Shown here: one piece after another, positions 41,156 to 48,250 of the stretch
Layout of the letters: the number at the start of each line of letters is the position of its first letter
Position numbering within the stretch: the stretch's first letter is position 1
From: Planctomycetota bacterium
GTDB taxonomy: Bacteria; Planctomycetota; Planctomycetia; Pirellulales; Pirellulaceae
Assembly: GCA_963204915.1 (NCBI GenBank)
Contig: CAUJHS010000109.1
Span: forward strand, 1 to 64,000
Reading direction: 5' to 3'
Length of the DNA: 64,000 nucleotides
Notes under the pieces: generated by a model
Seen by the model: the letters and a program-made list of their open reading frames with translations, nothing else
Databases searched by the model: none
Told to the model about the DNA's origin: nothing
Translations under genes and position numbers: made by a program

Positions 41156-42358
41156 ATGAAGTTCGCACTCCTGGGCGTCGACGACGCCACCGCGGCATTA
41201 GCGCGTTTTCTTGCCACGCAGCCCGCTCACGCGATCACTGCGGTGTACGGCGTTGAAGCCAACGACCCCCGACTTGGCTCCCTGGCCCACGCCAGTCAAT
41301 CGGCCAAATCCTGGGAGGCTTTGCTCCATGATCCGCTTGCCGATGCGGTGATTGTCGCTTCCGGCCCGGCCGCGGAAAGGGCGGAACCGTTGGGCAAATT
41401 AGTTCGTGCTTCGGTTCCGCTGCTGGTTTGTTCACCCACGTGCGATGTAGTCACCGCGTACGAACTGGAGATGATCCGCCGCGATACCCGAGCACCGCTT
41501 GTACCCCTCATACCGGGACGGCTCCATCCGGCCATACTCCGCTTGGTGGAGTTGGTGAACCAGGGCGAACAGGGGCCGCTCGGGCAGATCGAACAAGCGG
41601 TTGTCGAACGGTCCCTCGCGCAGCGCGGTCGCGAACCAGTCTTGCGGCAGTTCACGCGCGATGTGTCGCTCTTGCGGGCCCTTGCCGGCGAGGTCCACCG
41701 GGTCAGCGCCATGGGACCACAATCGCCGTCTACCTCGTGGAACAACCTAAACGTGCAAATGATCACCGGGAATGGCGCAATTCTCCGGTGGACGGCCCAA
41801 CCGGCTGACTCGGACGACTCGGGCAAGTTAATCTTGGTCGGCAGCCGAGGCAAAGCCGTGCTAGACATGCTCGCCCGTGATATATGGACGCTAGCCGTTC
41901 GCGGCTCCGAGATACTTTTGGAAACCTTCGAATCGGCCGATGAACCCGCGCGAGTTGTCGCGGCTTTTCAATTCGCTCTCCAGGGGGATCCGTCCTTTCC
42001 GCTTTGGCAAGATGCGTGCCGTGATATTGAAATTGCCGCGACCGCTGAAAGAAGCCTGGCCCGCGGCCGCACCGTGGAGTTGTACGAAGAAGAAATCTCG
42101 GAAGAAGCCACGTTCAAAGGAATCATGGCGGTCGGCGGCTGCGCGATGCTGTTGTTGGGGCTTACGGCCTTCCTCATCGCGGCGGTCGTTGAGGGGTTAC
42201 AACTTCCCTTTCGCAATCACGTGCTTTGGCAACTCTGGCCCGTGTATCTCTTGGTACCCATTGTGTTTTTCTTGCTGTTACAGTTCCTGCAACTGTTATT
42301 TCGCGACCGGCCGAAGCCGTCTGCCCCTGAGAGCAAAACGCCTTCTTCCACAGCCTAA
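41156..42358 (+). CDS. Gfo/Idh-like Rossmann protein with C-terminal membrane hairpin
   Basis: 400 residues. The N-terminal about 120 residues look like a divergent Rossmann domain of the Gfo/Idh type (FALLGVDDATAALARFLATQ, DAVIVASGPAAERAEPLGKL), but the G-x-G-x-x-G loop is absent. A middle alpha/beta part (about 120-310) resembles the oxidoreductase C-terminal sheet domain, including VLRQFTRDVSLLRALAGEV. Unusually, two membrane helices close the protein (about 321-343 GIMAVGGCAMLLLGLTAFLI and 357-380 LLVPIVFFLLLQFLQLLF), with a Pro/Ser tail. So it appears to be a non-catalytic or altered oxidoreductase tethered to the inner membrane. Same strand and close spacing suggest an operon with the Nudix-like and cysteine desulfurase genes. 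Confidence 0.65.
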   Translation: MKFALLGVDDATAALARFLATQPAHAITAVYGVEANDPRLGSLAHASQSAKSWEALLHDPLADAVIVASGPAAERAEPLGKLVRASVPLLVCSPTCDVVTAYELEMIRRDTRAPLVPLIPGRLHPAILRLVELVNQGEQGPLGQIEQAVVERSLAQRGREPVLRQFTRDVSLLRALAGEVHRVSAMGPQSPSTSWNNLNVQMITGNGAILRWTAQPADSDDSGKLILVGSRGKAVLDMLARDIWTLAVRGSEILLETFESADEPARVVAAFQFALQGDPSFPLWQDACRDIEIAATAERSLARGRTVELYEEEISEEATFKGIMAVGGCAMLLLGLTAFLIAAVVEGLQLPFRNHVLWQLWPVYLLVPIVFFLLLQFLQLLFRDRPKPSAPESKTPSSTA

Positions 42359-44267: not shown

Positions 44268-47200
44268 ATGTCGGCCTGTCGCTTGCTTATCGCGTCGCTT
44301 GCAGCCGCTTGCCTTGGACTTGCCGTGCAGGGGGCCATCGCGTCGCCGCTGCCCGAGATGGCCGCCGACGCCCCGCTCAACGACGTGTTCTTTCTCGATC
44401 CAGATCGAGGCTGGGCCGTTGGCGATTGCGGCGTGATTTTGCAAACCGAGGACGGCGGACGAAGTTGGCGACAACAAGACGCCCCCGTACACTGCCGGCT
44501 TCACGCCGTCTGGTTTCTGGACGGCGACAACGGCTGGGTGGTTGGAGGCTGGTCCCACCCTTACACGCACAAATCAACGGGCCTCGTGTTGCGTACCTCG
44601 GACGGCGGAGCGACTTGGCGTCAACTCTCGTCGTCAGCCGTTCCCCTGCTTCGACGCATCAAAATGTTCGACGGAAAACGCGGTTGGGCCGTTGGCGCCG
44701 CCTCGCCGTTGTACCCAGCGGGCGTTTACCGCACCGAGGACGGTGGTCGGGGTTGGGCGTCGGTCGCGGGCGATCGGCCGCTTGGCTGGGAAACGGGCGA
44801 CTTTCGCGACGCGGTGAGCGGCGTGCTGGCCGGGCAGGGCGGCGTGGCGCTGGTGGGCATGAACCGATTTCAAAACTCTCCCGCGCCCATCGCACCACGT
44901 CACATCGCACGGCAGCTCCGCCTGACGGAATCGAATCATGTGTGGCTGGTTGGCGACACGGGCCTGCTGCTTCACTCGCGCAATGGCGGCGCCGTTTGGG
45001 AGCCCCCGCCGGCGACGCCTCCGCTGGCGTCTTACGACTTACAAGCTCTCGCGGTTTGCGGCGACCATGTTTGGACGGCCGGGGCGCCCGGAACGCATGT
45101 CTTTCACTCAACCGACGGGGGAACAACGTGGGACAAATTCTCGACCGACCAATCGCTCCCTTTACGCGCGATGTTTTTTCTCGACCCCTACCATGGTTGG
45201 GCCGTTGGCGAGCTGGGCGCGATTCTCGCCACGCGTGACGGCGGTCGCTCGTGGATGCGGCAACGCGGCGCTGATCGGCGCGTCGCCCTACTCGGAATTT
45301 TTGCCGAATCAAAGAACACGCCTTGGGAACTTTTTGTCCGCTATTGCGGCAGTGAAGGCTATCGCGGAGCGGTTGAGTATGTCTTTCGTCGCGACCCCGG
45401 CGACGCGACACCCGGTGAAACCTCGCTGGAACACCGCGCCCAGGAAGCAGTGCTTGCCGCCGGAGGGCGCCACGCTGGCTCAACGACCGCCTTTCTCGCG
45501 CCTCCCGAGGGACAAGTCGTATCGCTCCAGACGATTATCGGCCTTAACTCCGGTATTGGCCTCAACTCCGGACTCGGCGGAAACTTGGGCGTCGAACGCC
45601 ATCCGGATCCAAGGGAACCTTCGCCGCCCGATTTATCGTCGGAAGTCGATGTTTCGCGGAATCTCTCGCTCAGTCTGGAAGAACACGTCGCCCGAAAAAT
45701 TCGCCAATGGCGACCGGAAGTCATCGTGACAGAAGCGGCGTCGTCAAGAAACGGCGCGCTTGCTTACGCCGTGAACCAGGCGGTTCTCAATGCCGCCGCC
45801 AAAACCAACGATCCGGCCTACTTTTCTGAACATGCCTCGCAACACGGTTTGTCGCCTTGGCTGGTTAAAAAGGTTTACAGCGTGCAACCTCCCGGGGCCA
45901 CGGGAAACGCCTCGCTGATCACCGCGAGTCTCGCGCCTCGCTTGGGCGGTTCACTCGCCGATCGAGCCGCAAAGTCTCAGGCGTTGCTGGAGCGCGAGTT
46001 TCGAGCATCTCCTTCTACGATTGAATTTCAAATCCTGGCCAATCATGCGATGGGCGGATCAAGCCGCGGAGGCGATCTCATGGCCGGCCTGACGCTGCCG
46101 GTGGACAGTGAAGCCCGCCGCCGACTGACCGACCTTTCGCCAGGTCGCCTCGATTTAGTGGCCAAAACGGCGCAGCACCAGCGCAACATCCAGCATATTT
46201 TGTCGCAAAGCGTGGCGCAGTCGAGCGATTCCGTCCTCAGCCAGGTTGCGGAGTTAATCCGCGGAGTGCCCGAGGAAACGGCTGGCGACATCCTCTTTCA
46301 GTTGGCGGAACGATTGCGGCAGCATGGGCGGTTAGAGCAAGCCGCCGAGGTCTATCGGCGACTAGCGCAGCACCATTCAAAGCATCCGGCGAGCGAAGCG
46401 GCGTCACTTTGGTTGATGCAGTATCTGGCAAGTAGTGAAACCGCGTACCAGCAAGGAAGCCGCGCGGAAATCCGACGCGGCGTCGGAGGCGGCGTGCAAA
46501 CCGCCTTGCTTCTCCAACCCGACGAGCAAGACGGTAACGACCCCGTCCAGCCTGCGGCCTTTCACGCGCCGATCGCCATTCGAGAGGGAGCCACGGCTTC
46601 GGTCAGCGCCGACCAGCGCGATCGCGATGCGCAAGTGCTCGAACTAGGCCAAGCAACGGCACGAAATCATTTCGCGCTTTATGCCGAACCGTCGCTACGG
46701 TTTTCCCTTGCCGCAGCAGCGCGGCGCCAGGGTGATGCGCGCGAAGCGGAGCGGTTTTTCCACCAACTCGCAACGCGCGAGCGGGCCAACGCTTGGAGTC
46801 AATGCGCCGCGGGCGAACTGTGGTTTATGAAGCCCGTCGGCGAACCACCAAAGAAGATGCTGCGTTGTGCGGCAGCCAAAGAACGCCCTTTCCTGGATGG
46901 TCGCTTGGATGACGCGCTTTGGCAAAACGCGCCAACGCTGGAGTTGACCTCGTCACCCCCCTTCAGCGCCGGGGTCAGCAAGCTCCTCCTCACTCGCGAC
47001 GCCGAGTATTTGTACTTTGCCGCACAATGCACGAAGGCCACGGGAATCGAGTACGCGGCGAGCGATGCGCCTCGTTCGTACGACGCGCCGTTATCGGAGC
47101 ACGATCGCGTGGAGTTACTCCTTGATGTGGATCGCGACTACGCCAGCTACTATCGCTTGACGATCGACCATCGGGGATGGACCGCCGACGCTTGCTTTGG

Positions 47201-47432
47201 CGACTCGGCTTGGAACCCGCAATGGTATGTGGCCGCCGAGTCCGACGCGGAGACCTGGACGATTGAAGGCGCCATACCCTTTCACGCGTTGACCGCGAAT
47301 CCGCCGCAACGGCGCGACGTGTGGGCCCTCGGCGTACAGCGCGTGGCGCCTAATGCGGGTTTTCAGTCCTGGACACGCCCCGCCACGCCGAGCGGAACCC
47401 CGGAGGGTTTCGGGTATCTTGTATTTGAGTAA
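44268..47432 (+). CDS. Secreted three-part protein: Ycf48/BNR propeller, PIG-L-like and CBM9-like domains
   Basis: 1054 residues with signal peptide (about 1-25). Part 1 (about 30-330) is a propeller with repeated DGG-x-S/T-W boxes (TEDGGRSWRQQ, TSDGGATWRQL, STDGGTTWDKF, TRDGGRSWMRQ), the Ycf48/BNR type that assists photosystem assembly in cyanobacteria. Part 2 (about 340-600) resembles a PIG-L/LmbE deacetylase: WRPEVIVTEAAS, AVNQAVLNAAAKTNDPAYFS and HGLSPWLVKKVYSVQPPG are its family pattern, but the zinc motif AHPDD reads AESKN, so activity is unlikely. Part 3 is helical and then CBM9-like (about 860-1050: FLDGRLDDALWQNAPTLELT, VELLLDVDRDYASYYRLTID). Probably a surface glycan- or protein-binding scaffold. 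A HisA-like gene follows 56 bases later. Confidence 0.75.
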   Translation: MSACRLLIASLAAACLGLAVQGAIASPLPEMAADAPLNDVFFLDPDRGWAVGDCGVILQTEDGGRSWRQQDAPVHCRLHAVWFLDGDNGWVVGGWSHPYTHKSTGLVLRTSDGGATWRQLSSSAVPLLRRIKMFDGKRGWAVGAASPLYPAGVYRTEDGGRGWASVAGDRPLGWETGDFRDAVSGVLAGQGGVALVGMNRFQNSPAPIAPRHIARQLRLTESNHVWLVGDTGLLLHSRNGGAVWEPPPATPPLASYDLQALAVCGDHVWTAGAPGTHVFHSTDGGTTWDKFSTDQSLPLRAMFFLDPYHGWAVGELGAILATRDGGRSWMRQRGADRRVALLGIFAESKNTPWELFVRYCGSEGYRGAVEYVFRRDPGDATPGETSLEHRAQEAVLAAGGRHAGSTTAFLAPPEGQVVSLQTIIGLNSGIGLNSGLGGNLGVERHPDPREPSPPDLSSEVDVSRNLSLSLEEHVARKIRQWRPEVIVTEAASSRNGALAYAVNQAVLNAAAKTNDPAYFSEHASQHGLSPWLVKKVYSVQPPGATGNASLITASLAPRLGGSLADRAAKSQALLEREFRASPSTIEFQILANHAMGGSSRGGDLMAGLTLPVDSEARRRLTDLSPGRLDLVAKTAQHQRNIQHILSQSVAQSSDSVLSQVAELIRGVPEETAGDILFQLAERLRQHGRLEQAAEVYRRLAQHHSKHPASEAASLWLMQYLASSETAYQQGSRAEIRRGVGGGVQTALLLQPDEQDGNDPVQPAAFHAPIAIREGATASVSADQRDRDAQVLELGQATARNHFALYAEPSLRFSLAAAARRQGDAREAERFFHQLATRERANAWSQCAAGELWFMKPVGEPPKKMLRCAAAKERPFLDGRLDDALWQNAPTLELTSSPPFSAGVSKLLLTRDAEYLYFAAQCTKATGIEYAASDAPRSYDAPLSEHDRVELLLDVDRDYASYYRLTIDHRGWTADACFGDSAWNPQWYVAAESDAETWTIEGAIPFHALTANPPQRRDVWALGVQRVAPNAGFQSWTRPATPSGTPEGFGYLVFE

Positions 47433-47488
47433 ACTTGCCATGCGTCGGCCATCGGCGCGTCGGCCAACACGGAGCAGCAAACTCCATC

Positions 47489-48250
47489 GTGCGTGTCATT
47501 CCCGTGATCGATCTCCAGGGCGGAGAAGTGGTGCGCGGCGTGGGGGGTCGCCGGCACGAATACCGTCGTCTGGAAACGGTGCTCACGCGAGACGTAACGC
47601 CTCGCGGCGTCGCTCTTGCCCTGGCGGAAAACTTTCCTGTCGCCGAAGTGTACGTGGCCGACCTCGACGCCATTGCTGGCCGCGAACCCAACTGGAAAGC
47701 CTACCAAGACATTGGACGTAGCGGCTTGCAGCTTTGGATTGACGCGGGAGCGGCGGACGAAACCCGCGCTACGGACATCGCCACGTTCGATGGCGCCCCG
47801 GTTGGGGCGATCCTGGTCGGATTGGAGTCGCTCGAATCGCCCGATGCCTTGACCCGCATTGTCAAAGCGCCTGTCTTTCAAACGGCGAAATGTGGCCGCG
47901 TTGCGTTCAGCCTCGATTTACACGAGGGAAAGCCCCTGACTCGGATCGGCGCGTGGCAGGATTGGTCTCCGTTGCAGGTGGCGGAGTTTGCCGTCACGTC
48001 GGGCGTGACGCAAATGATGGTTCTGGACCTCACGCACGTGGGCGAATCGCACGGCGTGGGCGGCCTTGAGGCTTGTCGGCGTATCCACGAACGGTTTCCT
48101 GACGTTGAACTGATTGGCGGCGGCGGCGTACGCACCCGTGACGACGCCGAACAACTGGCAGGGGCTGGCTGCCAGGCAATATTACTTGCCTCGGCGCTTC
48201 ATGCCGGACTGTTCACCGCCGACGACGTAGCGCGGCTTTCTGCTCGGTAG
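47489..48250 (+). CDS. HisA-like TIM-barrel protein
   Basis: 253 residues from a GTG at 47489 (GGAG lies 14 bases before it, rather far). A (beta/alpha)8 phosphoribosyl-binding barrel of the HisA/HisF type: the N-terminal Asp is in RVIPVIDLQGGEVVRG, a second Asp in FSLDLHEGKPLTRIG, and the phosphate-binding glycines in LIGGGGVRTRDDAEQLAGAG near the end. It is not in a his gene group and differs from true HisA by its short loops, resembling the COG1411 proFAR-isomerase-related proteins. Some of these occur with tetrahydromethanopterin-pathway genes, which many Planctomycetes have; that link is from memory and uncertain. Confidence 0.75.
   Translation: MRVIPVIDLQGGEVVRGVGGRRHEYRRLETVLTRDVTPRGVALALAENFPVAEVYVADLDAIAGREPNWKAYQDIGRSGLQLWIDAGAADETRATDIATFDGAPVGAILVGLESLESPDALTRIVKAPVFQTAKCGRVAFSLDLHEGKPLTRIGAWQDWSPLQVAEFAVTSGVTQMMVLDLTHVGESHGVGGLEACRRIHERFPDVELIGGGGVRTRDDAEQLAGAGCQAILLASALHAGLFTADDVARLSAR

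Follow-up and report, generated by a model that had tools for sequence, protein, structure and literature searches.

A near class-wide, single-copy planctomycete protein with a Ycf48-type propeller, a PIG-L-fold domain lacking the zinc motif and a CBM9-like end: a possible envelope scaffold

What could be the task of a protein in which a propeller of the Ycf48 type is followed by a PIG-L-like domain without its zinc motif and, at the other end, by a CBM9-like module? The question is raised by a gene (Table 1) in the window, the 64,000-nt stretch of DNA from a Planctomycetota bacterium that was analysed (GenBank assembly GCA_963204915.1, contig CAUJHS010000109.1). The first-pass annotation, made from the letters alone, proposed a secreted protein with propeller, PIG-L-like and CBM9-like parts in that order, which would recognise rather than cleave acetylated or amino sugars. 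The domains and their order are borne out by Pfam, profile, model and Foldseek results, and the PIG-L fold, the loss of its motif and the signal-like start also hold; sugar recognition is the part that fares badly. A helical TPR-like region, absent from that annotation, is a fourth part, and the four-part anatomy of the 1054-aa protein is well supported. That no described protein has this order agrees with the open-licence PMC literature, in which no description of it was found and searches by family and by PIG-L pseudoenzymes brought up nothing on the family; the accessible portion of a paper on essential genes of Planctopirus limnophila (PMC10632474) does not mention the family's terms.

Table 1. 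Parts of the four-domain gene, in coordinates of the window
Feature	Position	Strand	Basis or remark
Whole gene	44268..47432	+	ATG at 44268, stop TAA 47430-47432 included, 1054 aa
Signal-peptide-like N-terminus, about residues 1-26	44268..44345	+	hydrophobic 14-mer
Ycf48-type beta-propeller, about residues 31-335	44358..45272	+	PSII_BNR, phmmer, Foldseek
PIG-L/LmbE-fold domain without zinc motif, about residues 336-600	45273..46067	+	hhalign, model, Foldseek
AESKN, residues 346-350	45303..45317	+	hhalign alignment with AHPDD; column counts
Insertion of window protein, about residues 444-467	45597..45668	+	low model confidence, rare in relatives
Helical TPR-like region, about residues 601-857	46068..46838	+	subthreshold TPR matches; helices in model
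CBM9-like beta-sandwich, about residues 864-1054	46857..47429	+	CBM9_1, 1i82 matches

The hydrophobic 14-mer at the start has a mean Kyte-Doolittle value of 2.44, and a hydrophobic segment of at least 1.8 on the same scale lies ahead of the propeller in 112 of the 125 longer family members, a signal-like start that points to secretion. A full-length model (residues 24-1054, with 61 of 68 relatives as input) reached pLDDT 89.3 and pTM 0.90, values that suggest domains held in fixed positions to one another. A second structure comparison with this model gave little information on the other domains, the matches being filled by propellers, and sequence search of the PDB returned Ycf48 chains, together with Utp24 rows at chance level (E about 0.8-0.9). 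The TPR-like region is helical in the full-length model, with a low-confidence stretch near 741-772 (pLDDT is below 50 at model positions 718-749); its Pfam matches to TPR_2 (E 3.2e-4, 21 bits vs 27) and TPR_14 (E 3.3e-4, 21.5 bits vs 23.5) are below cut-off.

The identity of the second domain had to be settled by profile and structure. Pfam gives no PIG-L (PF02585) match for the window protein, and only 5 of 24 members scanned match at E ≤ 1, the best at 0.025. Set against six PIG-L proteins encoded by the same genome, a weaker test, the PIG-L part has an hhalign probability of 84 (E 7.6e-6). The probability rises to 99.5 (E 1.2e-22) with five large secreted PIG-L proteins of 840-1030 aa from the phylum scan (L079-L083), which have an AADP...PEQ...GL.PW stretch in common with the window protein. 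For residues 333-600, an AlphaFold model that drew on 62 of the 68 non-redundant named relatives reached pLDDT 88.5 and pTM 0.85, and each of its 35 Foldseek matches at E ≤ 0.001 has the PIG-L/LmbE fold. With VIA the same model scores Z 20.4 against 5bmo (rmsd 2.2, 188 aligned), and past the last PIG-L row Z falls from 16.2 to 7.8; the PIG-L/LmbE proteins MshB, BshB and LnmX have the fold in common with residues 336-600 at Z of about 16-20. Residues 333-600 thus have a Rossmann-like PIG-L fold by model, Foldseek, VIA and profile match, and the structure prediction of residues 340-600 on which the first-pass annotation had staked its claim found what it foresaw. Six columns of 336-600 are at least 90% conserved (364 Gly, 399 Gly, 479 Arg, 483 Pro, 513 Ala and 528 Leu), though at 513 the window protein itself has Thr; the conserved columns 364, 399, 479, 481, 483, 509, 528 and 531 look structural.

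What this fold has lost is its metal site. HXD1D2 with a further His is, according to the accessible portion of a review of the superfamily (PMC4101496), a feature of every LmbE-like enzyme identified by 2014. The AESKN of the window protein aligns by hhalign with the AHPDD of the secreted PIG-L proteins, in keeping with the motif loss read from the sequence at the outset. The family alignment holds 128 members, of which 46, among them the window protein, come from the first scan for relatives and 82 from loci found later. Rows that repeated another one identically over a long stretch had been taken out, and five loci, L042, L152, L164, L168 and L177, dropped as split or partial. The first His of the motif is present at column 347 in 3 members, its two Asp at columns 349 and 350 in 17 and 34 members, respectively, and the third-ligand His at column 499 in 1; these counts are not independent, since close strains remain in the set. 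The complete HXDD plus His motif is found in 0 of the 128, so the loss is old. The member L048, with the variant HAAD (His at 347, Asp at 350, no first Asp), may be less damaged at the site than the others.

Candidates for a displaced site were considered and rejected. His at column 500 (25 of 128) is not the third ligand, which a gapless profile alignment places at 499. The only HxD of the window protein, HPDP at 445, lies within the low-confidence insertion and lacks the second Asp. A loose pattern run over the full-length sequences picked up strings of the HTDD or HTTD type in 13 members, most of them by position outside the PIG-L-like part; when the search is confined to 336-600, HxDD turns up in a single one of the 128 members (L071), close to the third-ligand region and away from the motif column. 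The intact zinc site elsewhere in the PIG-L part that would have told against the first-pass annotation was thus looked for in the window protein, and none was found. The domain is probably catalytically dead, judging from its sequence, and because the zinc site is lost the protein more likely binds or holds together than cuts sugars.

Two further observations belong here. The insertion has pLDDT 45-53 in the model blocks covering residues 434-463, and its sampled columns, 445-466, are occupied in 1-3 of the 128 rows; the surrounding region (window 45534-45668, + strand) has a GLNSGIGLNSGLGG repeat and low model confidence, and is partly rare in relatives. In another large PIG-L-like protein, L078 (G109:C144), AHPDDED reads RPGDEDA, possibly an independent loss of the motif.

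The distribution of the architecture, a check that the first-pass annotation had called for, is near class-wide. The genome itself has one copy of the gene, and 54 of 60 relatives have a match, some covering part of the protein only. The full-length model matches 318 of 397 class genomes at E ≤ 1e-20, mostly once each and in some cases in pieces or weakly (282 of the 339 better genomes of the class), so the architecture is not a one-off; the middle-domain model by itself matches 294 of the 397 at E ≤ 1e-5. From the names of the listed loci the class is taken to be Planctomycetia. The C-terminal model (residues 470-1054) has a match at E ≤ 1e-10 in 123 of the 392 of a phylum sample, and the matches listed outside the class are all partial, covering either its CBM9-like end or its PIG-L-like start. 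A single scan extended to bacteria beyond the phylum; by their titles the 80 listed of its 123 confirmed loci are planctomycete, save L132, labelled only 'bacterium', and their genera include Gimesia, Schlesneria, Bythopirellula, Aeoliella, Zavarzinella, Limnoglobus and a Singulisphaera MAG. The 79 of 397 class genomes that have no match imply that some lineages can do without the family or have a copy too diverged to be recognised. Among the rows listed, at least 12 genomes of one family, f8, all of the same order, have no match (G043, G587, G593, G598, G609, G637, G651, G664, G667, G689, G728 and G745), possibly a lineage-wide loss. At L042 (G006:C279) an in-frame TAA splits the family copy into two open frames.

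Conservation is uneven along the chain. Mean pairwise identity is 0.41 for both the propeller and the CBM9-like part, 0.28 for the PIG-L-like part and 0.26 for the helical part, and columns of at least 90% identity number 45 of 305, 29 of 191, 6 of 265 and 6 of 257, respectively. The outer domains are conserved and the middle is divergent, which together with the signal-like start and the precedent of Ycf48 (PMC9145668, in its accessible portion) suggests a scaffold role. The reading preferred here, with a probability of about 0.45, is an extracytoplasmic, single-copy, four-domain protein with a catalytically dead PIG-L domain, which would work in the cell envelope as a scaffold for binding or assembly. 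The zinc site of a secreted PIG-L-type deacetylase domain would have been lost before the class radiated; the dead domain, between the propeller and the TPR-like/CBM9-like tail, would now serve for structure or docking. Client proteins or components of the surface would be bound by the two conserved parts, the propeller and the CBM9-like domain, whose spacing would be set by the PIG-L-like and helical parts. The fuller version is put forward more tentatively: a near class-wide single-copy protein of Planctomycetia, with a pseudo-deacetylase at its core, would be an undescribed factor in the assembly or scaffolding of their unusual envelope, and a conserved Arg/Asp cluster of its CBM9-like domain would be a functional site.

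A narrower alternative takes the likeness to Ycf48 at face value: the protein would be dedicated to the assembly of one membrane complex, much as Ycf48 is to that of photosystem II, and its other domains would be anchors. PSII_BNR matches the window protein at E 1e-29 (104.2 bits vs a cut-off of 27). Ycf48 chains are the closest solved propellers by sequence (phmmer E 6.1e-19) and come first by Foldseek too (E 5.8e-14 against 5ojr, TM by target length 0.71-0.74), so that the propeller is of the same family as Ycf48/HCF136 by sequence and by fold, and it is among the two best-conserved parts. Ycf48 is an assembly factor in which, as the accessible text of a study has it (PMC9145668), an arginine patch binds membrane proteins. 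The window protein differs from Ycf48/HCF136 in having three further domains and is not an equivalog, scoring 111.6 bits against the NCBIfam NF010237 cut-off of 326. To our knowledge no photosystem is to be expected in planctomycetes.

Nor does the neighbourhood link a client gene, which together with the failure of equivalence makes the dedicated assembly factor an unlikely reading. No conserved operon was found around the family gene at 134 loci (some the same genome seen twice; 120 of them hold at least 1.2 kb downstream). Partners suggested by the window copy did not stand, as the best candidate, a class-V aminotransferase, has a similar gene at only 13 of the 134. A gene like that for cysteine desulfurase, recognised by eye, is downstream at 13 of 134. 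The commonest neighbour, RNase HII-like by Pfam, lies downstream on the same strand within 180 bp at 27 of 134, and in the window's own genome its counterpart is on another contig. It was rejected as a functional link because it is present in all 40 genomes tested, 20 with the family and 20 without a match, and the adjacency looks like old synteny. With no functional link from the neighbourhood, Fe-S or photosystem roles are not claimed. Beside the window copy, a His_biosynth (HisA-like) frame starts a few bases past its stop codon (47435-48250, + strand), and no similar gene is found near the family's relatives; the frame at 41156-42358 (+ strand) has an N-terminus that is Gfo/Idh Rossmann-like by eye and a C-terminus with a weak Phage_holin_3_6 match (25 bits vs 28.4).

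Doubtful to the same degree is a lectin-like protein, which at the cell surface would use its dead PIG-L pocket and its CBM9-like domain to recognise acetylated glycans or amino sugars. Relatives of both the PIG-L and the CBM9 domain deal with sugars, and the C-terminal domain is CBM9-like in sequence and fold: CBM9_1 matches at E 6.8e-7 (29.8 bits vs a cut-off of 23.4), and 1i82, the CBM9-2 of Thermotoga Xyn10A, at E 4.6e-6 by hmmsearch and 1.2e-8 by Foldseek (TM by target length 0.76). It differs from that module in having no glycoside hydrolase attached and in lacking the sugar clamp, which in the accessible part of the description of TmCBM9-2 (PMC8280721) is formed by Trp71 and Trp175. The two residues were placed in the chain by a count of alignment positions, offset by one. 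Trp71 aligns by HMMER to the Ser943 column, aromatic in 0 of the 128 members, and Trp175 falls in an insert whose adjoining columns are aromatic in 1-3 of 128; the clamp is thus absent among the members aligned. What does mark the domain is a conserved Arg/Asp cluster (R936, D939, D946, R947, D953, D955, R956, D957 and D967), a point for the lectin-like reading, and W982, P984 and W986 are conserved as well.

The former PIG-L active site tells against that reading too. Its columns (347, 349, 350, 498 and 499) have a mean entropy of 3.02 vs a domain average of 2.33, which is unlike the expectation for a conserved sugar pocket, though only suggestive because 5.5% of random sets of five columns reach the same value. 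In its favour, 99 of 128 members keep Arg390, possibly the substrate-contact Arg of BshB and MshB (PMC4101496, in its accessible portion), although this part of the alignment is ambiguous and has a 3-residue gap. The recognition of acetylated or amino sugars first proposed for the protein thus finds both of its expected sites wanting, and an envelope scaffold or assembly role is preferred; glycans may be bound through another surface of the protein.

A diverged enzyme with another mechanism is improbable: GalB hydratase, which has the same fold (5cgz) and is among the fold matches, implies that the fold can serve another reaction, but across 336-600 in the 128 aligned members no new conserved polar set stands in place of the lost ligands. 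That gene or fold is an artefact (wrong frame, frameshift or chance likeness) has next to no probability, since, for all that the window protein by itself lacks a Pfam PIG-L match, full-length frames of about 1000-1200 aa occur in well over a hundred listed genomes and the PIG-L part has a confident model and a strong profile match.

The family is a large, old branch that kept the LmbE fold and dropped the metal motif, beside enzymes which, as identified up to 2014 and as far as the accessible review goes (PMC4101496), all carry it. Planctomycetes have a class-specific envelope biology in which many conserved genes are without known function. As a single-copy gene that is widely kept in the class and tied to no known pathway, this one is a clear candidate for a part in it.
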